Assembly: GCF_028471945.1 (NCBI RefSeq)
Contig: NZ_CP110128.1
Span: forward strand, 4,328,501 to 4,392,500
Source: Pseudomonas sp. WJP1
Lineage (GTDB): Bacteria > Pseudomonadota > Gammaproteobacteria > Pseudomonadales > Pseudomonadaceae
Length of the DNA: 64,000 bases
Direction: 5' to 3'
Below are positions 1,978-30,302 of the stretch, one piece after another. Under the pieces are notes generated by a model. It was not told the DNA's origin, did not search any database, and was given only the letters and a program-made list of their open reading frames with translations. A program made the position numbers and the translations under genes. Positions within the stretch are counted from its first letter, which is position 1, and the number at the start of each line of letters is the position of its first letter.

Positions 1978-3177
1978 TTATAGACGTTCGATCACGACGG
2001 CCAGCCCCTGGCCGACGCCGATGCACAGGCTGACCACGGCGTAACGGCCGCCACGGCGTTCCAGTTCGCGCAGCGCGGTCAGCGCCAGGCGCGCACCGGA
2101 AGCCCCCAGCGGATGGCCCAGGGCAATGGCACCGCCGTTGGGATTGACACGCGGGTCGTCGGCGCGCAAGTCGAGCAGGTGCAGGCAGCCCAGTACCTGG
2201 ACGGCGAAGGCTTCGTTGATCTCGATCAGGTCCATGTCTGCCAGGCTCAAACCCGCACGCTCCAGCGCCTTGGGAATGGCAAAGGCCGGGCCGATGCCCA
2301 TCACCCGCGGTGCAACGCCACTGGCAGCGCCAGCGAGGATTCGCCCTCGCGGCTGGACGCCATGGCGCTCACCCAACGCGCGGCTGCCGATCAGCAAGGC
2401 CGCCGCACCATCGTTGATGCCCGAGGCGTTGCCAGCGGTGACGACGCCACCGTCAAACAACGGCTTGAGCCTGGCCAGATCCTCGGGATTGGCCTGCGGA
2501 CGCGGATGTTCATCAGCGGTCACGGTGACGGTGCCCTTGCGACCGGCCGGTGCTTGCAGGGCGAGGATTTCATCGGCGAAGAACCCCTCGGCCAGCGCCT
2601 TCGCATAGCGTTGCTGCGAGGCCAGTGCAAACGCGTCAGCCGCCTCGCGCCCGATGCCGTAATCGTGGGCAACGTTGTCTGCCGTTTCCGGCATGGTGTC
2701 GTTGCCGTATTGCGCATTGACCTTCGGATTGGGGAAGCGCGCACCGATGGTGGTATCGAAGAGCTTCGCCTCACGGCTGTACGCCGATTCGCTCTTGCTC
2801 AACACAAAGGGCGCACGGCTCATGCTTTCTACACCGCCGGCCAGATACAACTCGCCTTCGCCACAGCTGACAGCACGTGCGGCATCGAGCACGGCGGCCA
2901 GGCCGCTGGCACACAGGCGATTGACGGTCTGCCCCGGCACGCTGACCGGCAGCCCCGCGGCCAGCAGCGCGTTGCGTGCGACGTTGCGGCTGTCTTCGCC
3001 AGCCTGATTGGTGCAGCCGAGGATCACGTCCTCGATCTGATCGGCAGAAAACGGCGAGCGCTCCACCAGGGCCCGCATCAACTGGGCGGCAAGATCATCC
3101 GGGCGAACCGGCGCCAGGCCGCCGCCATGGCGACCGAACGGAGTACGCAAACCATCGTAGATATAAGCGTCGAGCAT
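1978..3177 (-). CDS. Acetyl-CoA C-acyltransferase (thiolase, PcaF/FadA type)
   Basis: A 399-residue thiolase, full length for the family. It cleaves a 3-oxoacyl-CoA with CoA to give acetyl-CoA and a shortened acyl-CoA. The acylated cysteine is Cys89 in the NRLCASG motif; the GHPLGASGAR histidine motif and the C-terminal CIGVGQG cysteine are present. NVARNALLAAGLP and VESMSRAP also resemble beta-ketoadipyl-CoA thiolases, so a dicarboxylyl-CoA substrate is possible. It lies between the 3-hydroxyacyl-CoA dehydrogenase (27 bases upstream) and the acyl-CoA dehydrogenase, as expected for the last step of one beta-oxidation cycle. Confidence 0.92.
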   Translation of the reverse strand: MLDAYIYDGLRTPFGRHGGGLAPVRPDDLAAQLMRALVERSPFSADQIEDVILGCTNQAGEDSRNVARNALLAAGLPVSVPGQTVNRLCASGLAAVLDAARAVSCGEGELYLAGGVESMSRAPFVLSKSESAYSREAKLFDTTIGARFPNPKVNAQYGNDTMPETADNVAHDYGIGREAADAFALASQQRYAKALAEGFFADEILALQAPAGRKGTVTVTADEHPRPQANPEDLARLKPLFDGGVVTAGNASGINDGAAALLIGSRALGERHGVQPRGRILAGAASGVAPRVMGIGPAFAIPKALERAGLSLADMDLIEINEAFAVQVLGCLHLLDLRADDPRVNPNGGAIALGHPLGASGARLALTALRELERRGGRYAVVSLCIGVGQGLAVVIERL

Positions 3178-3204
3178 TCTTATTGTTCCTTCCCGTAGTG
3201 AGTA

Positions 3205-4722
3205 TCAGGTGTCAGCGGTGAGCAGCGACAAACCCAGGCGGGCGCGGCGCATCAACCAGGGGCTGGGGCGATAACGCGGGTCGCGGTAGTAGTGGTGGAG
3301 GTTGTCGAGGATCTGCAGCACGGTGTCGCCGCCGAGCGCATCACCCCACGCCAGCGGACCCAGCGGATAACCCAGGCCGAGGCGAATGGCACTGTCGATG
3401 TCTTTCGGGCTGGCCACGCCTTGCTGCGCCATGTCGCAAGCGATGTTGACGATGTGCGCCAGCACCCGCTGCGCAACGAAACCTGCGCTGTCGCGGATCA
3501 CGCTGACCGGTTTGCCGTCGGCAGCCAGCAGTGCATGGGCAGCATCGCGCCAGCCCGGCGCGGTGATGGTCGTGGTCATCAACACGCGGCGGCGCTCCAG
3601 CGGCAGCAGCGTGTCCAGGGCCAGGGTGCGCATCGGGTCGAGTCCTTCGGCGATGGCGGCGTGCGTCGCATCCGTACCCAGCGGCAACACCAGGCACAGC
3701 GCGTCGGGGCCTGGCCGCTGGCCCGTCTCGATGTGCGCACCCAGGCGCTGAAGCAGGTCAATCACGGCATCACGGGCGTGGGGCCGCGCAGCGCTGACCC
3801 ACACCATCGGCAGCTTCACGTCGGGTGCCAGTGCCTCGTCGGGTACCTGCTGCACGCCCTCGACGTAGCGGTAGAAGCCTTGCCCGACCTTGCGCCCGAG
3901 CAACCCGGCGTCCAGGCGTTGGCGGGTGATCACCGTCGGGCGATAGCGTGGCTCATGGTAATACTGATCGAAGATCGATTCGGTAACCGGGTGCGAAACG
4001 TCCAGCCCGGTGAGATCGAACAGCTCGCACGGCCCCATGCGAAAACCGGCCTGCTCGCGCAGGATGCGATCCAGGGTCAGCGGGTCGGTCACCGACTCGC
4101 TCAACACGCGCATGGCCTCGGTGCCATAACCCCGACCGCCATGGTTGACGATGAAACCGGGCGTGTCCTGGGCGCGCACGGCGGTATGACCGAAGCGCTC
4201 GCCGAGTGCCAGCAATGTCGCCCCGACCCAGGGTTCGCTCTTGAGGCCATCGATCACCTCGACGATCTTCATCAGCGCCACCGGGTTGAAAAAGTGAAAG
4301 CCGCCGACTCGCCCCGGCACGCTACATTGCGCGGCGATGGCGGTCACCGACAGCGACGAGGTGTTGGTGGCCAACAGGCAGTCGTCGGCTACCACGGCTT
4401 CAAGGTCGGCGAACAAGGCACGCTTGATCTCGAGGTTCTCGACGATCGCTTCCACCACCAACTGGGCATCGGCCAGCTCGGCCAAGGCGTTCGCCGCCAG
4501 CAGATGTTGCGCGGCCACCTGTACCTGCTGCTCGCTCAACTTGCCCTTGGCGCAAAGCTTTTCGAGGGTTGTCACAATCCCTTGGCGGGCGGATTGCGCG
4601 GCGCCTTCGCGGCTGTCGAACAGTTGCACCGTTACGCCGGCCAATGCCGCGATCTGCGCGATGCCGGCGCCCATGACACCCGCACCGACCACCGCCATGC
4701 GATTGATTTTTCGTGCATTCAT
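3205..4722 (-). CDS. 3-hydroxyacyl-CoA dehydrogenase (PaaH-like, duplicated C-terminal domain)
   Basis: A 505-residue NAD-dependent enzyme oxidising 3-hydroxyacyl-CoA to 3-oxoacyl-CoA. The Rossmann motif GAGVMGAGIAQIAA lies at residues about 13-26. TNTSSLSVTAIA and PGRVGGFHFFNPV are the 3HCDH signatures. Two C-terminal 3HCDH helical domains follow (around GFIVNHGGRGYGTEA and GFVAQRVLAHIVN), which gives the 500-residue length typical of PaaH/PaaC-type enzymes rather than the 280-residue short form. Only 2 bases separate it from the enoyl-CoA hydratase stop, so the two are co-transcribed and probably coupled. Confidence 0.92.
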   Translation of the reverse strand: MNARKINRMAVVGAGVMGAGIAQIAALAGVTVQLFDSREGAAQSARQGIVTTLEKLCAKGKLSEQQVQVAAQHLLAANALAELADAQLVVEAIVENLEIKRALFADLEAVVADDCLLATNTSSLSVTAIAAQCSVPGRVGGFHFFNPVALMKIVEVIDGLKSEPWVGATLLALGERFGHTAVRAQDTPGFIVNHGGRGYGTEAMRVLSESVTDPLTLDRILREQAGFRMGPCELFDLTGLDVSHPVTESIFDQYYHEPRYRPTVITRQRLDAGLLGRKVGQGFYRYVEGVQQVPDEALAPDVKLPMVWVSAARPHARDAVIDLLQRLGAHIETGQRPGPDALCLVLPLGTDATHAAIAEGLDPMRTLALDTLLPLERRRVLMTTTITAPGWRDAAHALLAADGKPVSVIRDSAGFVAQRVLAHIVNIACDMAQQGVASPKDIDSAIRLGLGYPLGPLAWGDALGGDTVLQILDNLHHYYRDPRYRPSPWLMRRARLGLSLLTADT

Positions 4723-4724
4723 GC

Positions 4725-5495
4725 TCAGTTCCCCGAATAGACCGGCTGGCGTTTCTCGAGGAAGGCGCGCATGCCCTCCTTCTGGTCGGCGGAATCAAAG
4801 AGCAGCTGGAAGGCCTTGCGCTCCAGCATCAGCGCGGTGTCCAGCGAGGCGTCCTGGCCTGCCAGCAAGACTTCCTTGATCTGCATCACGGCCAATGGCG
4901 GCATGCCGGCAATCTGCGTGGCCAGTTCCAGAGCACGTGCCTGCACCTGGTCGTCCTCCACCACCTCACTGGCCAGGCCCATGCGCAGGGCCTCATCGGC
5001 GCTGACCGGCAGGCCGGTGAGCAGCATGCGCATCGCCTGGAACTTGCCGACCGCACGGGTCAGGCGCTGGGTTCCGCCGGCACCGGGCATGATGCCGACA
5101 CGGATTTCTGGCTGACCAAAACGGGCGCTGCGGCCGGCGACGATCAAGTCGGCATGCATCGCCAATTCACAGCCGCCACCCAGGGCGAAGCCATTGACCG
5201 CCGCGATCACCGGTTTCGGGCACTCGGCGATTGCCGCCCACAGCCGTTGCGTCTGGCGCAGGAGCATGTCGATGGCACCGCGCTCAGCCATGTCGCGAAT
5301 ATCCGCGCCGGCGGCGAACACCTGGTCACCGCCGGTGAGCAGGATGCAACGCACTTCAGGATCGACGCCCAGCACGCTGAAGTGTTCCGCCAGTTGCTCA
5401 CGGACCGCCTGGTTCAGCGCATTGCGCGCCTCAGGTCGGTTGAGGTGGATCCGCGCCACGCCCGTCAAAGGGTGATCGACATAGGTTTCGTTCAT
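4725..5495 (-). CDS. Enoyl-CoA hydratase/isomerase (crotonase family)
   Basis: A 256-residue crotonase-fold enzyme that would hydrate trans-2-enoyl-CoA. The oxyanion-hole segment AAGADIRDMAERG and the signature NGFALGGGCELAMHADLIVA are intact, followed by FGQPEIRVGIMPGAGGTQRL with the usual catalytic-region acid. It is the first gene of the minus-strand operon hydratase, hydroxyacyl dehydrogenase, thiolase, acyl-CoA dehydrogenase. The promoter should lie in the 243-base spacer toward the IclR gene, which carries two copies of a 17-bp palindrome-like site. Confidence 0.92.
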   Translation of the reverse strand: MNETYVDHPLTGVARIHLNRPEARNALNQAVREQLAEHFSVLGVDPEVRCILLTGGDQVFAAGADIRDMAERGAIDMLLRQTQRLWAAIAECPKPVIAAVNGFALGGGCELAMHADLIVAGRSARFGQPEIRVGIMPGAGGTQRLTRAVGKFQAMRMLLTGLPVSADEALRMGLASEVVEDDQVQARALELATQIAGMPPLAVMQIKEVLLAGQDASLDTALMLERKAFQLLFDSADQKEGMRAFLEKRQPVYSGN

Positions 5496-5512
5496 AACTG
5501 CCTCTTGTTTTT

Positions 5513-5529
5513 GTTCCGCTATGCGAAAC
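5513..5529. promoter_or_regulatory. IclR-type operator candidate, copy 1
   Basis: The 17-mer GTTCCGCTATGCGAAAC is an almost perfect palindrome (GTTCCGC / GCGAAAC around TAT). It occurs 18 bases before the enoyl-CoA hydratase start and is repeated exactly 119 bases away at 5632-5648. IclR regulators typically bind palindromes of about this length. Assignment to the adjacent IclR protein is inference. Confidence 0.65.
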
Positions 5530-5631
5530 TATGTTTTGCAATTAAAAACAAGCCTACGCAAATTCTCCTGCGCTTTGCAATCACACGAACGCATCACATG
5601 ACAAACAATAAATTTATGGTTGGATTCATTA

Positions 5632-5648
5632 GTTCCGCTATGCGAAAC
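5632..5648. promoter_or_regulatory. IclR-type operator candidate, copy 2
   Basis: An identical second copy of GTTCCGCTATGCGAAAC in the same divergent spacer, about 90 bases before the iclR start. The surrounding DNA (5530-5670) is A+T-rich, as expected for promoters. Two identical sites near opposite ends of the spacer suggest joint control of both transcripts. Confidence 0.65.
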
Positions 5649-5738
5649 TTGATTCTATTTTATTGACTATCGCTTTTCGCCTATGCCAGCATCCGGCCGG
5701 CGATCGGCGAGCCACCGTCCGACGCATGAGGATCGACC

Positions 5739-20755: not shown

Positions 20756-21805
20756 TCAGTATTGCATCTCGGCCACCAGCAGCTTCACCAACGCCGCGGC
20801 CGGCAGTTCCCGCGCCAGCGGTGCTCCCTGCCCGGCCCACTGCACGGCAAAATCGCTATTGGCCTGGGCAGCTGCCGCGACGTTCAGCGCCTTGTTGGCG
20901 TCATAGGTGAACGGATAGTCCGGCAAGGCGATGCCTGCCCCTTCGAGACTGGTGAAGTTGCGATTGACCATGCCCCGGGCCGGACGGCCGGAGATGACGC
21001 TGGTGACGCGCGTCTGATGCGCGCGCGGCCCCTTGAGCGCTTCCCGATAGGCAACGTTCGCCGACGACTCCGGGCAGAGTATGAACGCTGTGCCTAACTG
21101 CGCGGCGCTCGCGCCCAACTGCATGACAGCGTTAATACCTGCGCCATCCATGATGCCGCCTGCCGCAATTACTGGCAGCCGACAGGCATCGACCAGTACC
21201 CGCACCAAAGCCAGGGTGCCCATCTGCAAATCCTGCTGCGAATCGAAGACCCCGCGATGCCCGCCGGCCTCGTAACCCTGGGCCACCAGGGCATGCACCC
21301 CGGCGTGCTGCGCCGCCAGCCCTTCGGCCAGGTTGGTGACCGAGCACAGCAGCACGATGCCGGCGGCCTTGAGTGCATCGATGGCCGGTTGTGCAGGCAG
21401 GCCGAAATGGAAGCTGACCACCGCCGGCTTTTCCTCCAGTAGCATCTGCAGCATCTCGGCATCTTCAACGAACGAGGTGTAGATCTCCCGCAGCGACACG
21501 GGTGGCTCGGCGGCAAATTCGGCGAAAAACCCTGCCAGAAATTGCAGCCACCGCGATTCCCGCTCGGCATCCCGGACAGCAGGCTGGTGGCAGAACACAT
21601 TCACATTGAAGGGTTTGCCGGTCTGCGCCGCCGTCTCACGCAGCATGGCCCGCGCCTGCTCGACATTGCTCGCGCCAATGCCGATGGAACCCAGCCCGCC
21701 TGCATTAGACACCGCCGCCGCGAGCCTGGGGGTGGAGACACCCACCATCGGCGATTGAATGATCGGCAATTGGATGCTCAATAGGGACAACAGAGGATTG
21801 GACAT
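20756..21805 (-). CDS. Nitronate monooxygenase, class I-like (FMN)
   Basis: A 349-residue TIM-barrel flavoprotein. The start [20 protein letters not shown] has AGAGGATTGGAC upstream; a long open extension 5' of it is not needed. [54 protein letters not shown] and [28 protein letters not shown] fit class I NMOs, whose physiological substrate is propionate-3-nitronate, oxidised to malonate semialdehyde plus nitrite/nitrate. It follows mmsA on the same strand after 103 bases that contain a hairpin. Malonate semialdehyde is the kind of substrate MmsA consumes, so the pairing makes metabolic sense. Confidence 0.87.
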
Positions 21806-21859
21806 GGCAGCACCTGGACCTGACGGATGAAAGTGAACGCTGGAACTCTGCGCTGGACA

Positions 21860-21883
21860 GCGTGCAAGCCCGAGCTTGCACGC
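21860..21883. other. Hairpin between mmsA and nitronate monooxygenase genes
   Basis: A perfect 10-bp stem GCGTGCAAGC / GCTTGCACGC with a 4-base loop starts 25 bases after the mmsA stop. No T-run follows on either strand, so it is more likely an mRNA-stability or attenuation element inside the operon than a strong terminator. Confidence 0.55.
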
Positions 21884-21908
21884 CCTCCAACCCGAAAACG
21901 CGTGAAGG

Positions 21909-23426
21909 CTACTTGGAGGTCGGCATGGCGAACTCGGCGCCCTTGGCGATGCTGTTCGGCCAGCGCTGCATGACCGACTTCTGCTTGGTGTAGAAACGCA
22001 CACCCTCTTCGCCATAGGCGTGCATGTCACCGAACAGCGAGCGCTTCCAGCCACCGAAACCGTGCCACGCCATCGGCACCGGAATCGGCACGTTGATGCC
22101 GACCATGCCCACCTGGATGCGGGTCGCGAACTCACGGGCGATGTGGCCGTCGCGGGTGTAGCAAGCGGTGCCATTGCCGAATTCATGGGCATTGACCAGA
22201 TCAACCGCCTCGGCAAAATCCTTGACCCGCATGCACGCCAGCACCGGACCGAAGATTTCCTCCTGGTAGATCTTCATCTCGGGGGTGACATGGTCGAACA
22301 CCGTGCCACCAAGCCAGAAGCCCCCGGCACAATCGGCACCGGCCTGCGAGCCATCGAAGTCTCGGCCGTCGACCAGCATCTCGGCGCCTTCGGCGATGCC
22401 TTGCTCGATATAGCCGGTGATGCGCTGGTGCGCCACTCGGGAGACGATCGGGCCCATTTCCGCGGCCAGGTTCATGCCCTCGAGGATCTTCAGCGTCCGG
22501 GTGCGCTCCACCAGTTTGGGGATGACCTTGTCGGCCACATCACCGACGAACACCGCCACCGAAATCGCCATGCAGCGCTCGCCGGCAGAACCGAAGGCCG
22601 CGCCGATCAGCGCATCGACCACCTGCTCGACGTCGGCGTCGGGCATCACCACCATGTGGTTCTTCGCCCCGCCCAACGCCTGCACACGCTTGCCGTGGCG
22701 AGCACCGGTCTCGTAGATGTAGTTGGCGATCGGCGTCGAGCCGACAAAACTCACGGCCTTGACTTCAGGGTGGTCGAGCAGCGCATCCACCGCTTCTTTA
22801 TCACCCTGCACCACGTTGAACACACCGTCGGGCAGCCCGGCCTCCTTGAACAACTCGGCGATCAGCAGCGAGGGCGAAGGATCGATCGGGCTCGGCTTGA
22901 GCACGAAGGTGTTGCCGCAGGCGATGGCCACCGGGAACATCCACATCGGCACCATCACCGGGAAGTTGAACGGCGTGATACCGGTCACCACGCCCAGGGA
23001 CTGGCGCAGGGTCCAGTTGTCGATGTTGGTCGAGACCTGCTCGGTGTAGTCGCCCTTGAGCAGTTGCGGGATGCCGCAGGCAAATTCGACCACCTCAATG
23101 CCGCGCGTCACTTCGCCCTGGGCATCGGTGAAGACCTTGCCGTGTTCGGTGGTGATCATCCGGGCCAGGGTGTCGCGGTGCTCGTTGAGCAGCGCGAGGA
23201 ACTTGAACAGGATGCGCGCGCGGCGCAACGGCGGCGTCGCCGACCAGGCTGGAAATGCCCCGGCGGCCGACTGCACCGCGGCGTCGACGTCAGCCGCGCT
23301 GGCCAGGGCCACCTTGCCGATCACCGCACCGGTGGCGGGGTTGGTGACTTGCTGCGAGCGACTGGAAGTGCCGGGTGTCAGGCGACCGTGGATGTAGTGT
23401 GCGATGTCTGCTGGCTGGTTGCTCAT
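21909..23426 (-). CDS. mmsA: CoA-acylating methylmalonate/malonate-semialdehyde dehydrogenase
   Basis: A 505-residue aldehyde-dehydrogenase-superfamily enzyme. The start [12 protein letters not shown] has AGGGGAC upstream. It shows the MmsA pattern: [45 protein letters not shown] and the catalytic cysteine in [11 protein letters not shown], with Cys rather than the usual Glu-dependent hydrolysis giving a CoA thioester. It converts methylmalonate semialdehyde to propionyl-CoA or malonate semialdehyde to acetyl-CoA. There is no mmsB next to it; a nitronate monooxygenase follows instead. The promoter at 23507-23562 is shared with the DUF485-actP operon. Confidence 0.92.
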
Positions 23427-23506
23427 GGCGGGTGTCCCCTGGTGGTGGATAAGAGCCATCTCTTGTTGTTGTCAGGCCGGGGCTGTTGAGCGCTCCCGAC
23501 ATGGCC

Positions 23507-23562
23507 AAGGTAGGCCCGCCGATAAATCATGTAAAATGATGATTAATGATCATATGGATCAT
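23507..23562 (-). promoter_or_regulatory. Promoter and dyad operator of mmsA operon (shared motif, copy 1)
   Basis: On the minus strand TTTACA (23530-23535) and TACCTT (23507-23512) are separated by exactly 17 bases. The -35 lies inside the dyad ATCATGTAAAATGAT (23526-23540), which fits a LysR-type T-N11-A box. Further upstream are TAATGATC and a GATC-N5-GATC dyad. The same arrangement, base for base in most positions, occurs at 29014-29069. Confidence 0.75.
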
Positions 23563-24224
23563 ATTTTATGAAGCAACCACTTCGCCCGCTCGCCCAGGCG
23601 GCGCTTCCAGTCCGCAGCCAGGCCGACGCTGTCCGCCAGCGCCAGCAAATCGTCGATCAGTGGCCGGTGCGACAATTGCACCTGCCAGAACTGGTCGATG
23701 GAAAAGCGTTCGTTGTGCCGTTCCAGCAACTCAATGCGGTCCCCCGCTTGCAGCAAGCCCGGCTCGAGCACCCGGTAATACCAGCCGGTGATCCGCTCCC
23801 GGGCGACGAACATCGACATATGCTCGGCGTCAAAACGATGGTTGATCTTCCAGCAGGGACTGCGCGGCTGAGAGACCTGTAAGAGGCTGCTGCCGATGCG
23901 GAACACGTCGCCGATGTGCACGTTGAGCTCCGAAAGCCCGAACGCGGAAATGTTCTCCCCCAGGCTGCCCGCGACCAATTGCGCGGCACTGGGCGCAAAG
24001 GCCTGCCTCAGGCGCTGGTAGTTTTGCGCCGCATACTGATGCACGGCCTTTTCCGGGCCGCCGTGCACCCGGGTGTCGCCGTGCTGGTCGCCGACGATGC
24101 CGTGCAGCTCCACGCGTACCGGGCCTGCCTGGGGTTGCTTGAAGATGCCCGTGCGCTGCCCTTCGGGCTGCAACACTCCCAGGCCTCCTGCGAAGACATG
24201 GTCGATTGTCGAAGTCGGTGTCAT
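23559..24224 (-). CDS. MOSC-domain protein, YiiM-like
   Basis: A 221-residue protein with a MOSC domain followed by a helical tail, as in YiiM. VELHGIVGDQHGDTRVHGGPEKAVHQY and SLGENISAFGL are the MOSC signatures, and Cys124 in SQPRSPCWKINHRF is the conserved molybdenum-ligand cysteine. YiiM/YcbX-type proteins reduce N-hydroxylated compounds such as 6-hydroxylaminopurine using molybdenum cofactor. Its position between the mmsA-NMO and LysR genes, and its end overlapping the mmsA promoter motif, hint at handling of N-oxygenated by-products. Confidence 0.88.
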   Translation of the reverse strand: MTPTSTIDHVFAGGLGVLQPEGQRTGIFKQPQAGPVRVELHGIVGDQHGDTRVHGGPEKAVHQYAAQNYQRLRQAFAPSAAQLVAGSLGENISAFGLSELNVHIGDVFRIGSSLLQVSQPRSPCWKINHRFDAEHMSMFVARERITGWYYRVLEPGLLQAGDRIELLERHNERFSIDQFWQVQLSHRPLIDDLLALADSVGLAADWKRRLGERAKWLLHKI

Positions 24225-24284
24225 GGGTAGACCTGCGCTCTTTACCTGATTTCGGCCACTTTACTAATCGCCAAGAAAGATCGT

Positions 24285-24317
24285 AAAGTGATGGTTAAAC
24301 ATGGCAACAATCACTTT
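24285..24317. promoter_or_regulatory. Inverted repeat in MOSC/LysR divergent spacer
   Basis: AAAGTGAT (24285-24292) and ATCACTTT (24310-24317) form an 8-bp dyad with a 17-base gap, 22 bases before the LysR start. It is a plausible autoregulatory site for the LysR protein, but this is unproven. Confidence 0.45.
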
Positions 24318-24338
24318 TTCTGATAGATGGTGACGATC

Positions 24339-25238
24339 ATGGAAATGCGCCAACTGAAGATTTTCTGCGCCGTGGCCGAACTGGGCAGCTTCACCGCCGC
24401 CGCGTTGCAGGTGAATACCGTGCAGTCCAACGTCACCATGCGCGTCAAGGAACTGGAAGCCGAACTCAATCGCGAACTGTTCATCCGCAGGAAGTCCGGG
24501 GTGGTACTCACCTCGGCGGGCGAGACCTTTCTCGGTTATGCGCGGCGCATCCTGCAACTCACAGACGAAAGCCGCAGCGCCCTGATGGACACCGGCAGCC
24601 CGACCGGCCTGCTCAGGCTGGGCTCGATGGAAACCACCGCCGCCATTCGCTTGCCGCAAGTGCTGACTCGCTACCGCGAGCAGTACCCCGACGTGCAGTT
24701 GTCGTTGCTGACCGGCACCACGGTCGAGTTGATCAAGGCCATTGAATCTCATCGCCTCGACGGTGCCTTCGTCGGCGGCTTCCACCAGAACTCGGCGCTG
24801 GCCCAGGAAGAGGTGTTCTGCGAAGAGTTGGTGCTGGTCAGCAGCAACCAGTTCGAAACGCTGCCGGCGCTGATCGATAAAATGCCCCAGCAGACCGTGC
24901 TGGTGTTCCGCACCGGCTGCTTCTATCGCTCGACCCTGGAAAACTGGTTCTACCAGGTGGGACTGGTGCCCAACCAGATCATGGAACTGGGCACGCTCGA
25001 CGGCATCCTGTCGTGTGTGGCGGCGGGCATGGGCGTGACCCTGCTGCCCAAGGCCATCGCGGAAAACTGCAGCGTGCGCCATGCAATCCGCTGCCACACC
25101 CTGCCGGCGGAATTCGCCAATGTCTCCACGGTGTTCATCCGCCGCAACGATACGATGATCACCTCGGCGATGAGTGCGTTCATCGGCCTGGCGCAACAAC
25201 AGATCGCCAAGCCTGCGACCGCACACGGCCCCCTGTAG
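24339..25238 (+). CDS. LysR family transcriptional regulator
   Basis: A 299-residue LTTR. MEMRQLKIFCAVAELGSFTAAALQVNTVQSNVTMRVKELEAELN is the winged HTH, and the effector domain runs from GLLRLGSMETTAAIRLP. ATG 24339 was chosen; an ATG four codons earlier is possible. It is divergent from the MOSC gene and lies between the two operons that share a promoter motif containing a T-N11-A dyad, so it is the best local candidate for their regulator. The stop codon TAG is part of a REP element, so the REP insertion may have set the present C-terminus. Confidence 0.9.
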   Translation: MEMRQLKIFCAVAELGSFTAAALQVNTVQSNVTMRVKELEAELNRELFIRRKSGVVLTSAGETFLGYARRILQLTDESRSALMDTGSPTGLLRLGSMETTAAIRLPQVLTRYREQYPDVQLSLLTGTTVELIKAIESHRLDGAFVGGFHQNSALAQEEVFCEELVLVSSNQFETLPALIDKMPQQTVLVFRTGCFYRSTLENWFYQVGLVPNQIMELGTLDGILSCVAAGMGVTLLPKAIAENCSVRHAIRCHTLPAEFANVSTVFIRRNDTMITSAMSAFIGLAQQQIAKPATAHGPL

Positions 25239-25324
25239 GAGCGAGGCTTGCCCGCGAAGAACGATAACGCGGTGCGGCAGTTACACCGCAGCGCTTGGTT
25301 CGCCGGCAAGCCTGGCTCCTACAG
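25233..25324. repeat. REP doublet
   Basis: Inverted REP sequences CTGTAGGAGCGAGGCTTGCC and its partner ending GGCTCCTACAG flank a short central part. The element starts within the last codons of the LysR gene and provides its TAG stop. Confidence 0.85.
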
Positions 25325-25339
25325 TGGGCCATCGGTCAT

Positions 25340-26323
25340 TCAGCCCAACGCGGTGGCACGATTGATTTCGCCGAACGCCAGGCGGGTGATCGGCGCCAGG
25401 CCACTCGTCAGCTCCGCCACCCGCTCCGCCGCCGGCACGACACTGTGGATCTTGCCCACCCCCTGCCCCGCATACAGCGACAACTTCTGTGCCATCCGCG
25501 GTTTGTCGATCGCCCGGGCGCCTCCGCCGATCAAGCGCAGCAAATTCCACTTGTCCCGATTGGGGATCACCCGGTGCGGCGTGCCGTAGGTCCAGCCGAA
25601 GGAATAGCCGGTGCGGTACTCGGTGTCATCGGTGCTCGCTTCGACGATCTTCTGCTTGTACAGCGGATGGGCGTTGGACTCATCGGTGGCAATGAACGCC
25701 GTGCCCACCACCACCCCCGATGCACCCAGCGACATCAGTGCGCGCACGTCGTCGCCGTGGGTGATGCCACCGGCCGCCAGCACCGGCTTGCCCTCGGCGA
25801 CCGCCAGGATCGACGTCAACAACGGCATGATGCCGATCGTGCCGCGATTGAGGTGCCCACCACTTTCACTGCCCTGGGCGATGATGATGTCCGCGCCCTG
25901 GGCGATGGCGATGCGGGCCAGCTCCACCGTCCCTGCTTGCACCATGACCAGCAGCCCGGCGTCTTTCGCTCGGGGAATCATGTCGGCGGCATACTTCTCG
26001 GCATAAAACAGCGACAGCAATTTGGGCTTTTCCTTGAGAATCACCTGAAACTGCGCTTCGAAAACATCCGGTCCACCGAACTGCGGCACCAGGTTCACCC
26101 CGAAGGGCTGGTCGGTCAGCGCACGCGTTTCCTCGATCCAGCGACGCAAGGCCAAGGGCGGCAGGCGCAAGCCGCCGAGCACGCCCATGCCCCCGGCGTT
26201 GGCCACTGCCGCGACCAGTTGCGGGCCGGAAATGGCGGCCATGCCGCCGAGGAATATCGGGTACTCCACGCCGCAGAGCCGGGTGACGACATTACCCGAA
26301 AAACCGGTTTTGTCCTGTTTCAT
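25340..26323 (-). CDS. NMO-family flavin oxidoreductase (nitronate monooxygenase-like)
   Basis: A 327-residue FMN TIM-barrel protein. CGVEYPIFLGGMAAISGPQLVAAVANAGGMGVLGG, IIIAQGSESGGHLNRGTIGIMPL and AAGGITHGDDVRALMSLGASGVVVGTAF are the NMO/2-nitropropane-dioxygenase family motifs, but the details differ from the class I enzyme at 20756-21805, so it may be an NAD(P)H:quinone reductase-type member. It follows the cytochrome b gene by 3 bases and is the last gene of the DUF485-actP operon. Thus both operons with the shared promoter end in an NMO-family gene. Confidence 0.83.
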   Translation of the reverse strand: MKQDKTGFSGNVVTRLCGVEYPIFLGGMAAISGPQLVAAVANAGGMGVLGGLRLPPLALRRWIEETRALTDQPFGVNLVPQFGGPDVFEAQFQVILKEKPKLLSLFYAEKYAADMIPRAKDAGLLVMVQAGTVELARIAIAQGADIIIAQGSESGGHLNRGTIGIMPLLTSILAVAEGKPVLAAGGITHGDDVRALMSLGASGVVVGTAFIATDESNAHPLYKQKIVEASTDDTEYRTGYSFGWTYGTPHRVIPNRDKWNLLRLIGGGARAIDKPRMAQKLSLYAGQGVGKIHSVVPAAERVAELTSGLAPITRLAFGEINRATALG

Positions 26324-26326
26324 GAC

Positions 26327-26881
26327 TCACAGCTCCACATGTTTGCCCAGCATCCGCTTGAGCGTGTTGTTCTTCAGGAGAAAGTGATTCTTTACTGCGC
26401 CGAAAACATGCAGTGCCAGCCCGGCGAGGAACGCCGAGGCGCCAATGTCGAACAGCACATCGACCACATGCTTCAACGTGTGGTTGGCCGGCAGGATGCT
26501 CGGAATCCACCATCCGCCGGGCAGTTCGATAACCTCGCCGGCGGCGGCCCGTGAAGCCCACACCGCGATCGGCAACAGCACCATCGCCAAGGCCAGCGAC
26601 ACCGCCACCGAGCGGCTGATGATCACTTCGATAGGGTTCGGCGTGCCCACCGGCAGCGGATGATAGGAGGTGACCCGCGCCCAGAACCGGTAGGACGAGA
26701 CGAGGAACAGGATCAGCCCCAGCAGGTTTTGTACCCTGCCAAGCTGCAGTTGCTGCGCCTCGCTATGGGCGTGGCCGATCAGCAGTTGCAGGCCGAAAAT
26801 CCCCAGCAGCGTGAAAGCCACGACCCAGTGCAGGGCGACGGTGATGGGTGAAAATCTCAGGCCATTGTCTCGTAGTTGCAT
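26327..26881 (-). CDS. Cytochrome b (b561/YceJ family)
   Basis: A 184-residue inner-membrane di-heme protein with four hydrophobic segments. Candidate heme histidines are in PITVALHWVVAF (about residue 18), the LIGHAHSE loop, NHTLKHVVDV and LALHVFGAVKNHF. The b561 family passes electrons across the membrane or to periplasmic acceptors. It lies 54 bases after the actP-like gene and 3 bases before the NMO-family gene. The electron donor and acceptor are unknown; a link to the neighbouring flavin oxidoreductase is possible. Confidence 0.85.
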   Translation of the reverse strand: MQLRDNGLRFSPITVALHWVVAFTLLGIFGLQLLIGHAHSEAQQLQLGRVQNLLGLILFLVSSYRFWARVTSYHPLPVGTPNPIEVIISRSVAVSLALAMVLLPIAVWASRAAAGEVIELPGGWWIPSILPANHTLKHVVDVLFDIGASAFLAGLALHVFGAVKNHFLLKNNTLKRMLGKHVEL

Positions 26882-26935
26882 GGCTGACTCCTTTTGCAGA
26901 ATGCGCAGATCAGGAAAGGATGGACCGCGAAGGTC

Positions 26936-28609
26936 CTAGTGGTTGACCGCCTGCGCGGCACCGAGCCCGGTCTGGGCGCGGATCAACTGATCATCGAAAC
27001 GCTCGCGCTCGAGCACCGCACCATGGCTGCGGTCAGTGACCGAGCCCAGCCAGGTGAACAGGAACGCCACGTTCATCGAGATGATCGCCGGATAGTCATA
27101 GGGGAAGATCGCCTCGGCATTGCCCAGCACCTTGACCCACACTGCCGGCGAGAGAATGACCAGCCCCACCGCACTCACCAGCCCGGCGACTCCGCCGATC
27201 AGTGCGCCACGGGTGGTCAGCCCTTTCCAGTACATCGAGAGCACCAGGATCGGGAAGTTGACCGAGGCCGCCACACCGAAGGTCAGCGCGACCAGGAAGG
27301 CAATGTTCTGATCCTTGAACAGAATCCCCAGCACCACTGCGACGATGCCGATGCCCACCGAAGCAATGCGCGATACGCGACGCTCGTCCTTGGCCTGTGC
27401 CTTACCCTTCCTGACCACCATCACGTACAAGTCGTGGGAGATCGCCGACGTGCCGGCCATGGTCAGCCCCGACACCACCGCCAGGATCGTCGCGAACGCC
27501 ACGGCGGAAATGAAGCCCAGCAGCAGGTCACCACCCACGGCTTTGGCCAGGTGCATCACCGGCATGTTGGAGCCGCCGATCAACTTGCCCGCCAGATTGC
27601 CGGACTCGTAGAAGGCCGGGTCTTGGCCGACGATCACGATGGCCGCCAGGCCCAGCACCGCCACGATCAGGTAGAAGAAGCCGATGAAACCGGTGGCGAC
27701 GAACACCGATTTGCGCGCCTGTTTGGCGTCCGGCACGGTAAAGAAGCGCATGAGAATGTGCGGCAGGCCTGCGGTGCCAAACACCAGTCCCAGCGCCAAC
27801 GAGATCAGCGACAACGGGTCGGCCACCAGTTTGCTCGGCAGCAGGATCCGCTCGCCATCGCGGTGCGCGGCCACGGCTTTTTCGAACAACAGGTCGAAGG
27901 AAAAACCGAATTTGCTCAGCGCCAGGAACGCCAGCAGCGTCCCCCCCACCAGCAGCAACCCGGCCTTGATGATCTGCACCCAGGTGGTCGCAACCATGCC
28001 ACCGAAGGTGACGTAGACCGCCATCAACAGCCCCACGGCAATCACCGCATAGTTGTAGGGCAGGCCGAACAGCAGCTGGATCAACTGCCCTGCCCCCACC
28101 ATCTGGACCACCAGATAAAAGCACACCACCGTCAGCGAACCGAAGGCCGTCATCGTGCGGATGCGGTTCTGGTCGAGGCGGAAAGAGGCGATATCGGAGA
28201 TGGTGATGCGCCCCAGATTGCGGATGCGCTCGGCGAACAGGAACAACAGCAACGGCCAGGCGACAAAGAAACTGATCGAGTACAGCACGCCATCGAAGCC
28301 GTTGAAGAAGATCATGCTGGTGACTCCCAGCAACGCCGCCGCCGACATGTAGTCACCGGCCAGTGCCAGACCGTTCTGGAAGCCGCTGATACCACCGCCG
28401 GCGGTGTAGAAATCGTCCATGGATCGGGTTTTCGAGGCGGCCCAGTACGTGATGCCCAGGGTCGTCACGACGAAGACCAGGAACATGCTGATGGCGGTGA
28501 TGTTGATCGGTTGTTTTTCGACGTTCTGGATGACGTCACCGGCCATGGCGCGAGCCGCGAACACGCACAGCAGGACGGGAAGGATGAGGTTCAGCAGGAG
28601 GCGTTTCAT
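26936..28609 (-). CDS. actP: Sodium:solute symporter, ActP-like monocarboxylate/acetate permease
   Basis: A 557-residue SSF-family transporter. It begins with a cleavable-looking signal ([23 protein letters not shown]) as ActP does, followed by about 13 membrane spans; [31 protein letters not shown] is the SSF signature at the first core helices. ActP imports acetate, propionate, glycolate and related short monocarboxylates. The start overlaps the DUF485 stop by 4 bases, the universal yjcH-actP layout. Whether it carries acetate or another small acid here, such as 3-nitropropionate, cannot be read from sequence. Confidence 0.9.
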
Positions 28610-28920
28610 ACGATGGCCCCCGCGCGGATTTCTGCGGTCAGGTCATCGAACTCACCATTGGCGCGATGGATGTAGAGCCCTGTGAACAACCAGGCCCCGA
28701 CGATGAACACGGCACCTAGAGGCCAGCCGATGCTGATGATGCTGGTCGCGGAAAGTTTGGTCGCCAGCAGCTGGGGGGCGAAGGCGGCGACGAGGATAAA
28801 CGTGAAGTACGGGACAAGGGTGGCCGCGGTCAGACTGGCGACGAAGGTTCGCTGCCGCGAGACCAGCTCCTTGTACCGGGGATGGTTGCGGATTCTGGCT
28901 GATTCGGTTGCATGGTTCAC
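28606..28920 (-). CDS. yjcH: DUF485 membrane protein (YjcH-like)
   Basis: A 104-residue protein with two membrane spans. [31 protein letters not shown] and the ending [20 protein letters not shown] are typical of DUF485 proteins always found before ActP. It overlaps actP by ATGA, so translation is coupled. It is the first gene of a four-gene operon; its promoter at 29014-29069 matches that of mmsA. The biochemical role is unknown, perhaps symporter assembly or regulation. Confidence 0.9.
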
Positions 28921-29013: not shown

Positions 29014-29069
29014 AACCTATGCCCGCCACACAATCATGTAAAATGATCAATAATGATCTAATTGATCGC
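29014..29069 (-). promoter_or_regulatory. Promoter and dyad operator of yjcH-actP operon (shared motif, copy 2)
   Basis: On the minus strand TTTACA (29037-29042), 17-base spacer containing GGCGGGC, then TAGGTT (29014-29019). The dyad ATCATGTAAAATGAT (29033-29047), TAATGATC and GATC-N5-GATC follow upstream, in the same order and spacing as at 23507-23562. The distal part overlaps the 3' end of the MFS gene. Confidence 0.75.
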
Positions 29070-30302
29070 TTTTGGTGAATTCACTATTCGAGGATTTGCC
29101 GCGCGACTTCTCACCCAGCCGTTGATCCCCGCGCACAACACCAGCAGCGCACCGGTCATCAGGAACACGTGGTGCAAGCCGAAATGCGCACCGATCTGGC
29201 CACCGATCAGGGGCCCGATCACCTGCCCGGAGAACTGCGCCGATTGCAGATAGCCGAGGATTTTTCCAGTGTCGTGATCCTCGACGGATTGCCGGATCAG
29301 CTTGGCAATGGCCGGCAGCAGGCCGGCGATGGTCATGCCCATCAGCCCCCGCAATACCGCCAGTTGCCACCACTGCGTAACGAATGCCTGGGGCACCATG
29401 ACGATGCCGGTCAACACCAGGCAACCGATGATCACGTTCCAGCTGCCGACTCGATCGGCCAGCGCACCGAGCCTGGCGGCGGTCAGGATGCTGCCCAGCG
29501 CCGAACAGGCCATCACCACCCCGGCGATCCGCGCCTGGTCATCAAAGGCAACGCCCAAGTGACCGATGTAGACCGTGATGATCGGCTCGATCGACATGTT
29601 GGCCAGCAGCACCATCATGGCCGTCATCAGCAGTGCGCCAATGATCGGCCAGCGAGAACCGGTCCCCTCGACCGGGAGCTTTTTCTCGCGTCGGACCCCG
29701 TCCGTACTGCGATCGAAATCCTCGCGAATCAGCACGATGGTGGTGATCGCCGCCACCGCGATCATCGCGCCACCCACAAAAAAAGTGCCGCGGATACCCA
29801 CCAACTGCGGCAGAAATCCCCCTACCAGCGGCCCGATAAGGTTGCCGGACAACGCCCCCGTCGACAGCACCCCCAGCGCCCAACCGGCTTTTTCCCGTGG
29901 CACCTGGGAGCCGATCATCACGATCGAAGCCGAGGCATAACCGCCGATGAGCCCGGCGATCAGGCGCAGCACCACCAGATCGGTAACGTCCCGCGCCAGC
30001 CCGATCAGCGACATCACGATCGCCATGCCGATGGCCGCGCGGACCAGCATCGGTTTACGCCCGAAACGATCCGCCAACCGGCCCCAGAGTGGCGCGGTAA
30101 TCGCCGTGCCAAAGAACGTTGCGCCAAACGCTACAGCCGACCACTGCACCACGTCGGCCTGCCCGGTGACACCCAGTTGTTGCACATAGAGCGGCAGGAA
30201 CGGCAGCAGCATGCTCAGGCTCACCAGGGTGGTGAACGAGCCGAACACACAAACAGCCAGGTTGCGACGCCAATAGGCAAGGTTACGATCGGCGTAATTC
30301 AT
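29058..30302 (-). CDS. MFS transporter (MdtG/DHA1-like drug efflux)
   Basis: A 414-residue major facilitator with twelve hydrophobic segments. MNYADRNLAYWRRNL was taken as start since the earlier in-frame part is not protein-like. The loop 2-3 motif GRLADRFGRKPMLVRAAIGM and the TM5 motif VLSTGALSGNLIGPLVGG are the family A and C motifs for DHA1 proton antiporters. The substrate is unknown. It is divergent from the D-cysteine desulfhydrase gene; the 234-base spacer is A+T-rich with TATCTCT/AGAGATA half-sites. Confidence 0.88.
   Translation of the reverse strand: MNYADRNLAYWRRNLAVCVFGSFTTLVSLSMLLPFLPLYVQQLGVTGQADVVQWSAVAFGATFFGTAITAPLWGRLADRFGRKPMLVRAAIGMAIVMSLIGLARDVTDLVVLRLIAGLIGGYASASIVMIGSQVPREKAGWALGVLSTGALSGNLIGPLVGGFLPQLVGIRGTFFVGGAMIAVAAITTIVLIREDFDRSTDGVRREKKLPVEGTGSRWPIIGALLMTAMMVLLANMSIEPIITVYIGHLGVAFDDQARIAGVVMACSALGSILTAARLGALADRVGSWNVIIGCLVLTGIVMVPQAFVTQWWQLAVLRGLMGMTIAGLLPAIAKLIRQSVEDHDTGKILGYLQSAQFSGQVIGPLIGGQIGAHFGLHHVFLMTGALLVLCAGINGWVRSRAANPRIVNSPKAIN

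Follow-up and report, generated by a model that had tools for sequence, protein, structure and literature searches.

What function unites two neighbouring minus-strand operons, each ending in a gene of the nitronate monooxygenase (NMO) family, in Pseudomonas sp. WJP1? The operons lie in a 64,000-nucleotide stretch of NZ_CP110128.1 (hereafter the window), a genome that consists of a single contig of 7,004,124 bases. Operon 1 comprises mmsA and NMO1, operon 2 comprises a DUF485 gene, actP, a cytochrome b561 gene and NMO2, and genes for a MOSC-domain protein and a LysR-type regulator are situated in between. This layout had been described in a first-pass annotation of the same DNA, which read the locus as a pathway for 3-nitropropionate, and the coordinates and family matches agree with it. 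Overall, the locus appears likely to serve the catabolism of 3-nitropropionate or its nitronate, propionate-3-nitronate (P3N), as a regulon controlled by LysR. The regulon itself is well supported by an operator kept at both promoters across Pseudomonas and by the presence of regulator and targets in the same genomes; 3-nitropropionate or P3N is the probable substrate.

The proposed mechanism can be described as follows. The LysR protein, with its putative inducer, would bind a two-part operator, overlapping the -35 box of each operon, as well as a weaker operator copy between its own gene and the MOSC gene. ActP would import a small nitro-carboxylate, and NMO1, perhaps with NMO2, would oxidise P3N to malonate semialdehyde and nitrite or nitrate. 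MmsA would then convert malonate semialdehyde to acetyl-CoA; in relatives, malonate semialdehyde decarboxylase (MSAD) would convert it to acetaldehyde, instead of or besides MmsA. A superoxide-oxidase-like b561 may pass the electrons of superoxide, arising from the flavin chemistry, to quinone. The nitronate-to-semialdehyde chemistry is already known, and the locus represents a fuller, new version of the known 3-nitropropionate pathway, in which the regulon, the MSAD link and the oxidase are the new parts. The LysR protein as regulator and the role of b561 are additions to the first-pass annotation, which had neither.

Many legumes and fungi contain 3-nitropropionate as a toxin, and a readable operator would allow genome mining for its degraders, besides offering a clear test by induction. 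A natural role would be given by the MSAD link to an enzyme that is tied to a man-made soil fumigant in the literature, as far as the available portions of it extend, and, from the b561 link, a physiological partner could be proposed for proteins of the superoxide-oxidase type. In its widest form, the proposal is a tentative one, somewhat more doubtful than not: 3-nitropropionate breakdown would be the natural home of MSAD, MSAD and MmsA would be interchangeable exits of an NMO operon, and b561 would be the partner that recycles the electrons which nitronate oxidation loses, with a single LysR operator governing the whole.

The shared operator and its probable regulator

The near-identical promoters noticed in the first-pass annotation share a 16-base core, AATCATGTAAAATGAT (plus strand), at 23525-23540 and 29032-29047, one in each operon promoter. 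With up to 3 mismatches allowed, the core has 2 matches in the window against 0.16 expected, and two or more matches were obtained in 0 of 100 shuffles. In the 7.0 Mb genome, four matches were found at up to 2 mismatches and none with the reversed control; the exact ones are the window pair only. The other two were rejected as operators, since the match with 1 mismatch (L011) is inside an open reading frame (ORF) reading as RHS-like and the match with 2 mismatches (L012) is inside an ORF reading as an ABC transporter ATPase.

On the minus strand, a shared 26-mer overlaps TTTACA, which is followed by a 17-base spacer and TANNTT (TACCTT or TAGGTT). The operator of operon 1 (23526..23563, minus strand) consists of the 26-mer at 23526-23551 and an upstream TGATC half, with the -35 box TTTACA at 23530-23535 and the -10 box TACCTT at 23507-23512. 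The operator of operon 2 (29033..29070, minus strand) consists of the 26-mer at 29033-29058 and an upstream GATC half, with TTTACA at 29037-29042 and TAGGTT at 29014-29019. A degenerate third operator with 9 mismatches (24278..24315, minus strand) is present in the LysR/MOSC intergenic region, which also contains a 12-nucleotide inverted repeat (24285-24296 / 24306-24317). When the operator strand was folded as DNA, no signal was obtained (z -0.22).

Conservation of the operator was scored in the Pseudomonas loci L017-L043, in which the 26-mer was sought within about 200 bases upstream of the genes. With no more than 2 mismatches it precedes mmsA in 14 of 15 loci, and with no more than 4 it precedes DUF485 in 11 of the 12 tested, the exception being L040 in both cases (9 and 7 mismatches, respectively); L030 is cut by its edge. 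Among loci that lack mmsA, the operator is found before MSAD in L035 (0 mismatches) and before NMO1 in L026 (0), L027 (1) and L193 (1), and a weak site is seen in L037 (6). The L022 copy, upstream of an mmsA remnant, is some 450 bases ahead of MSAD. As a control, 5400 stretches of 210 bases were drawn at random from these 27 loci, true sites included, and 28 of them reach 4 mismatches or fewer. The consensus across loci shows that positions flanking the operator vary more than the element itself. Upstream of MOSC, 15 of 17 loci have their best site, with 6-10 mismatches, at nearly the same place, 88-94 bases from where the searched stretch ends; since random stretches often score alike (200 of 5400 reach 10 mismatches or fewer), its constant position weighs more than its mismatch score. 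A shared operator before several units, kept across species, is the pattern of a LysR regulon.

The LysR gene (24327..25238, plus strand; Pfam HTH_1 and LysR_substrate) was followed together with its putative targets in an even sample of 297 Pseudomonas genomes from a larger group, with E-value cut-offs of 1e-120 for window-type LysR, 1e-100 for NMO2 and 1e-110 for NMO1. Window-type LysR is present in 13 of the 297 genomes and NMO2 in the identical 13. NMO1 is present in 46, and copies of at least 78% identity occur in 13 genomes, 12 of which belong to the LysR/NMO2 set; G440 has LysR and NMO2 without such an NMO1, and G657 has such an NMO1 without LysR and NMO2. Regulator and targets therefore occur together across genomes, and the earlier claim of a single regulon holds. 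Beyond the window genome, NMO2 relatives at 1e-60 were found in 3 of 398 Pseudomonadota genomes (57-58% identity). All three (L155-L157) adjoin a divergent LysR gene of 41-42% identity, with a b561 gene of 34-38% identity beyond it.

LysR relatives of the window clade adjoin NMO-family genes in L041, L049, L112, L155 and L156. In a tree of 32 rows, which is midpoint-rooted only and has long branches, the LysR genes divergent from NMO1 in other loci fall outside the group that the window LysR forms with those of these five loci and with a second LysR found in some Pseudomonas. This second LysR, about 39-42% identical to the window LysR, adjoins DUF485 on the opposite strand in L020, L021, L023, L026, L027, L029, L032, L033, L188, L192 and L193. 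There is no second LysR beside DUF485 in the window, and the next best LysR of the genome is 37% identical. The LysR gene between the operons is likely the regulator of both. An apparent unlinking of operon 1 from LysR in some genomes was dropped, since both G483 pieces (L188 and L189) are close to contig ends; L024 and L028 also begin at a contig end, L036 is apparently the same contig as L189, and L025 has ORFs reading as Mu-like phage genes next to it.

NMO1, NMO2 and the fate of malonate semialdehyde

NMO1 (20756..21805, minus strand; 349 residues), the last gene of operon 1, encodes a class I-type nitronate monooxygenase (Pfam NMO, 261.8 bits). A longer ORF of 486 residues over NMO1 begins upstream, within mmsA; the start of NMO1 was placed at 21805. 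The best structural counterpart is chain 4q4k (2.1e-127), which we take to be PA4202 (NmoA), a class I type enzyme, and to which NMO1 is highly similar (61.4% identity over 342 columns). NMO1 keeps the His of the EAGGH motif, which aligns to the His that is altered in chains 4qit and 4qiu. NMO2 (25340..26323, minus strand; 327 residues), the last gene of operon 2, encodes an NMO/FabK-family FMN-type enzyme (Pfam NMO, 185.2 bits). It keeps the corresponding His as ESGGH and lacks the FCHQP / FNVN-FCH segment; its best PDB matches are 5gvh (FabK type, 1.5e-39) and 3bo9 (putative nitroalkan dioxygenase, 1.6e-39), and its predicted structure, of very low confidence (pLDDT 42.9), was set aside. Judged by sequence, NMO2 is not class I-like. 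With only 34% identity to 4q4k and with FabK-type and putative nitroalkane dioxygenase relatives, it is at best a possible P3N oxidase. The class I motifs reported for the NMO of this locus are therefore carried by NMO1 only. In six Pandoraea loci (L051, L052, L071, L073, L077 and L081), NMO1-type genes occur as a tandem pair.

The first gene of operon 1, mmsA (21909..23459, minus strand), encodes a CoA-acylating (methyl)malonate-semialdehyde dehydrogenase (TIGR01722, 686.9 bits, cut-off 448.5). It is an extra paralogue, with relatives of 64%, 58%, 49% and 47% identity in the same genome. The nearest named loci are from Pseudomonas, for instance P. umsongensis (L018), in which mmsA and LysR are each 98% identical. 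The search for mmsA-NMO linkage that the first-pass annotation had suggested was carried out in the neighbourhoods of the best 80 of 344 NMO1 relatives, and mmsA-type genes of at least 73% identity are present in 16 of these 80 loci. L087 is the only one of the 16 outside Pseudomonas, and there mmsA is on the other strand with one gene between.

A second enzyme of malonate semialdehyde is also found beside NMO1. MSAD acts on malonate semialdehyde, and the MSAD of the relatives (129 residues) has a solved malonate semialdehyde decarboxylase, 2aag, as its best structural match (4.7e-58). Its gene directly precedes NMO1 in 10 of the 80 loci (L018, L020, L022, L024, L025, L028, L029, L030, L035 and L036), directly follows it in L045 and L049, and, in L063, L072 and L084, is separated from it by a LysR and an MFS gene at a distance of about 2.2 kb, so that MSAD adjoins or lies near NMO1 in 15 of 80 loci. 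Altogether, NMO1 is accompanied by MSAD or by an mmsA gene of at least 73% identity in 23 of the 80 loci. In L022 (9201-9431), the mmsA remnant (residues 1-66 clear; residues 503-516 weak, E 0.08) is followed by full-length MSAD and NMO1. The gene preceding NMO1 and MSAD in L045 and L049 reads as flavohaemoprotein-like.

Since the 80 loci had been selected by NMO1, the search was repeated starting from MSAD. An MSAD-like gene (1e-25) is present in 19 of the 297 Pseudomonas genomes, and an NMO1 relative adjoins 11 of the 19. Adjacency depends on identity: NMO1 is adjacent in 6 of 6 cases at 86% identity or above and in 5 of 9 at 55-62%, one of which is cut by a contig end. At the same threshold, MSAD-like genes are present in 14 of 398 Pseudomonadota genomes, and one of the 14 (L112, 70% identity) is beside an NMO-family gene. 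In this distant genome the genes form an independent cluster of LysR/NMO, MSAD and ActP, which supports the earlier placing of ActP in the pathway.

Salvage of malonate semialdehyde is the best-supported step of the proposed pathway. The earlier assignment of a nitronate-to-semialdehyde step to the NMO genes is accordingly upheld for operon 1, by the identity of NMO1 to 4q4k, the extra MmsA paralogue and the MSAD genes that, across several arrangements and taxa, adjoin NMO1 or lie close to it, but not for NMO2. The pathway as a whole fares likewise: the regulon, the chemistry of operon 1 and the place of ActP stand, whereas NMO2 as a class I enzyme does not.

Accessory proteins

DUF485 (28606..28920, minus strand), the first gene of operon 2, encodes a membrane protein (Pfam DUF485, 101.6 bits). 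It is followed by actP (26936..28609, minus strand), which encodes an actP-type sodium/monocarboxylate symporter (NF006903, 853.4 bits, cut-off 750) and would be the importer. The cytochrome b561 gene (26327..26881, minus strand; Pfam Ni_hydr_CYTB, 53.1 bits) encodes a protein with a superoxide-oxidase-like predicted fold. Its model was built from 8 sequences (pLDDT 77.4) and has the four-helix fold of CybB: E. coli superoxide oxidase, 5oc0, is the sole PDB entry that Foldseek matches to it at E up to 0.001 (E 1.2e-4, probability 1.00, TM 0.72/0.76), with 16% identity in that alignment. His18, 74, 158, 166 and 181 are invariant in 8 of 8 sequences, and the first four are also found in the distant L156. 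By likeness to CybB in predicted fold and conserved histidines, b561 may be a partner of the NMO flavin chemistry; it differs from CybB in its low identity and in a score of 24.3 bits with the cybB family model (cut-off 170), which places it outside that family by sequence. The E. coli superoxide oxidase is described in the available part of PMC11869295.

The MOSC-domain protein (23559..24224, minus strand; Pfam MOSC, 112.3 bits) is YiiM-like, with a match to YiiM in the PDB (5yhi, 4e-36) and an SPCWK stretch. Linkage alone suggests that it may clean up side products. In L049, a protein reading by eye as a YcbX-like MOSC protein, without a family search, is beside LysR and an NMO gene.

Known pathways and alternative explanations

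The closest known system is nmoR-nmoA of P. aeruginosa (PA4203-PA4202), a LysR-type regulator with a class I NMO, the latter presumably the 4q4k protein discussed above. To our knowledge, no mmsA, MSAD, actP, cytb561 or NMO2 is part of it. The window LysR and the LysR genes divergent from NMO1 in other loci also belong to different clades; the latter genes are NmoR-like by position only, NmoR itself not being part of the tree. According to the available part of PMC10926688, NmoR regulates nmoA, which is involved in 3-nitropropionic acid detoxification; nmoA, pnoA and NmoR are summarised there and in the corresponding part of PMC11585277. In Pseudomonas sp. JS189 (pnoA) and related degraders, P3N is converted to malonate semialdehyde (3-oxopropanoate) and then to acetyl-CoA, as in the pathway proposed here, but a one-operator set with ActP, NMO2, b561, MOSC and MSAD is not described in the accessible portion of PMC9552603. 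The MSAD of the relatives resembles that of the 1,3-dichloropropene pathway (P. pavonaceae 170) in being closest to 2aag. Unlike in that pathway, which the part of PMC10606566 at hand names as MSAD's own, it adjoins nitronate monooxygenase genes. No word beginning with 'nitro' occurs in the available text of the MSAD papers PMC5818174 and PMC10606566. A literature search gave no paper pairing 'malonate semialdehyde decarboxylase' with 'nitronate monooxygenase', and among the titles and abstract openings listed, none describes the present gene set; novelty is claimed no wider than these searches.

Several observations weigh against a LysR-controlled regulon for 3-nitropropionate. Neither mmsA nor MSAD is present in the stretches read of L019, L026, L027, L037 and L193, and L019 has no operator upstream of NMO1 (best site, 14 mismatches). 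The Pseudomonas loci are mutually related, so that conservation of the operator is partly shared descent. In L190 (9203-11551), mmsA has a perfect operator in a genome, G440, without an NMO1 match at 1e-110; NMO2 may therefore do the oxidation there. L155-L157 contain, besides LysR, NMO2 and the cytochrome gene, none of the other searched genes in the stretches read. The second LysR beside DUF485 could be the operator-binding regulator in relatives, and among NCBIfam models the window LysR scores best with that of the putrescine regulator PtrR, at 266.3 bits and below the cut-off of 400. By sequence, b561 has no superoxide-oxidase match in the PDB at E up to 1. A pnoA gene of Pseudomonas sp. 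Nvir was not expressed on nitropropionate, according to the part of PMC9552603 available.

On the side of MSAD, the window genome has no close copy (best 28% identity). No NMO match was found within 1.5 kb of 8 of the 19 Pseudomonas MSAD-like genes (four at 57-59% identity and four at 39-42%) or in the 14-18 kb read around 13 of the 14 phylum-wide ones (47-59%), and a general MSAD-NMO link was rejected on these counts. The link is claimed only for the clade at 86% identity and above and for part of the 55-62% set. A Rahnella plasmid MSAD (81% identity) has no NMO annotated within 6 kb in an incomplete gene table, one of two such plasmids having been viewed. The MSAD-family genes of two other plasmids viewed likewise have no NMO annotated nearby, in gene tables that are also incomplete, and the plasmid collection contains no NMO1 relative at 1e-80.

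Some of these observations would suit a LysR-controlled defence against alkyl nitronates generally, in which NMO1 and NMO2 detoxify, the semialdehyde enzymes are side passengers and 3-nitropropionate is one of several substrates. Class I NMOs take several nitronates; LysR, NMO2 and the cytochrome occur without mmsA, MSAD or actP in L155-L157, and in L041 a LysR gene adjoins NMO1 with none of the remaining genes. This explanation nevertheless seems unlikely when set against the operator directly upstream of mmsA and the linkage of malonate-semialdehyde enzymes to NMO-family genes in several unrelated arrangements.

It is quite improbable that the locus is an ordinary short-chain carboxylate, valine or beta-alanine regulon served by ActP and MmsA, with the NMO-family enzymes as FMN reductases with an unrelated job. 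The genome already has two more MmsA relatives (58-64% identity) and five more ActP copies (59-66%), and the gene set co-occurs with NMO2, LysR and NMO1, although such roles do occur in the MmsA and ActP families and, in the part of PMC9765439 available, both proteins are raised in P. aeruginosa growing on propionate. The substrate of MSAD, malonate semialdehyde (also in the accessible part of PMC10606566), likewise argues against it. Finally, that the operons are two separate neighbouring systems with promoters alike by duplication, not by common regulation, is highly improbable, since the operator is kept at both sites in many species despite differing flanks and the presence of the genes across genomes nearly coincides, even though the promoters are 5.5 kb apart and NMO1 is found without the other genes in L034/L191.

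Two further observations concern the surroundings of MSAD. The mmsA-MSAD-NMO1 operon of L025 has upstream of it ORFs (2297-5699) that read as transposition genes of a Mu-type phage. Myo-inositol breakdown yields malonate semialdehyde, and on the Agrobacterium larrymoorei Ti plasmid (L160, 4001-4390) an MSAD-family gene of 52.7% identity follows iolC, iolD, iolE and iolB.

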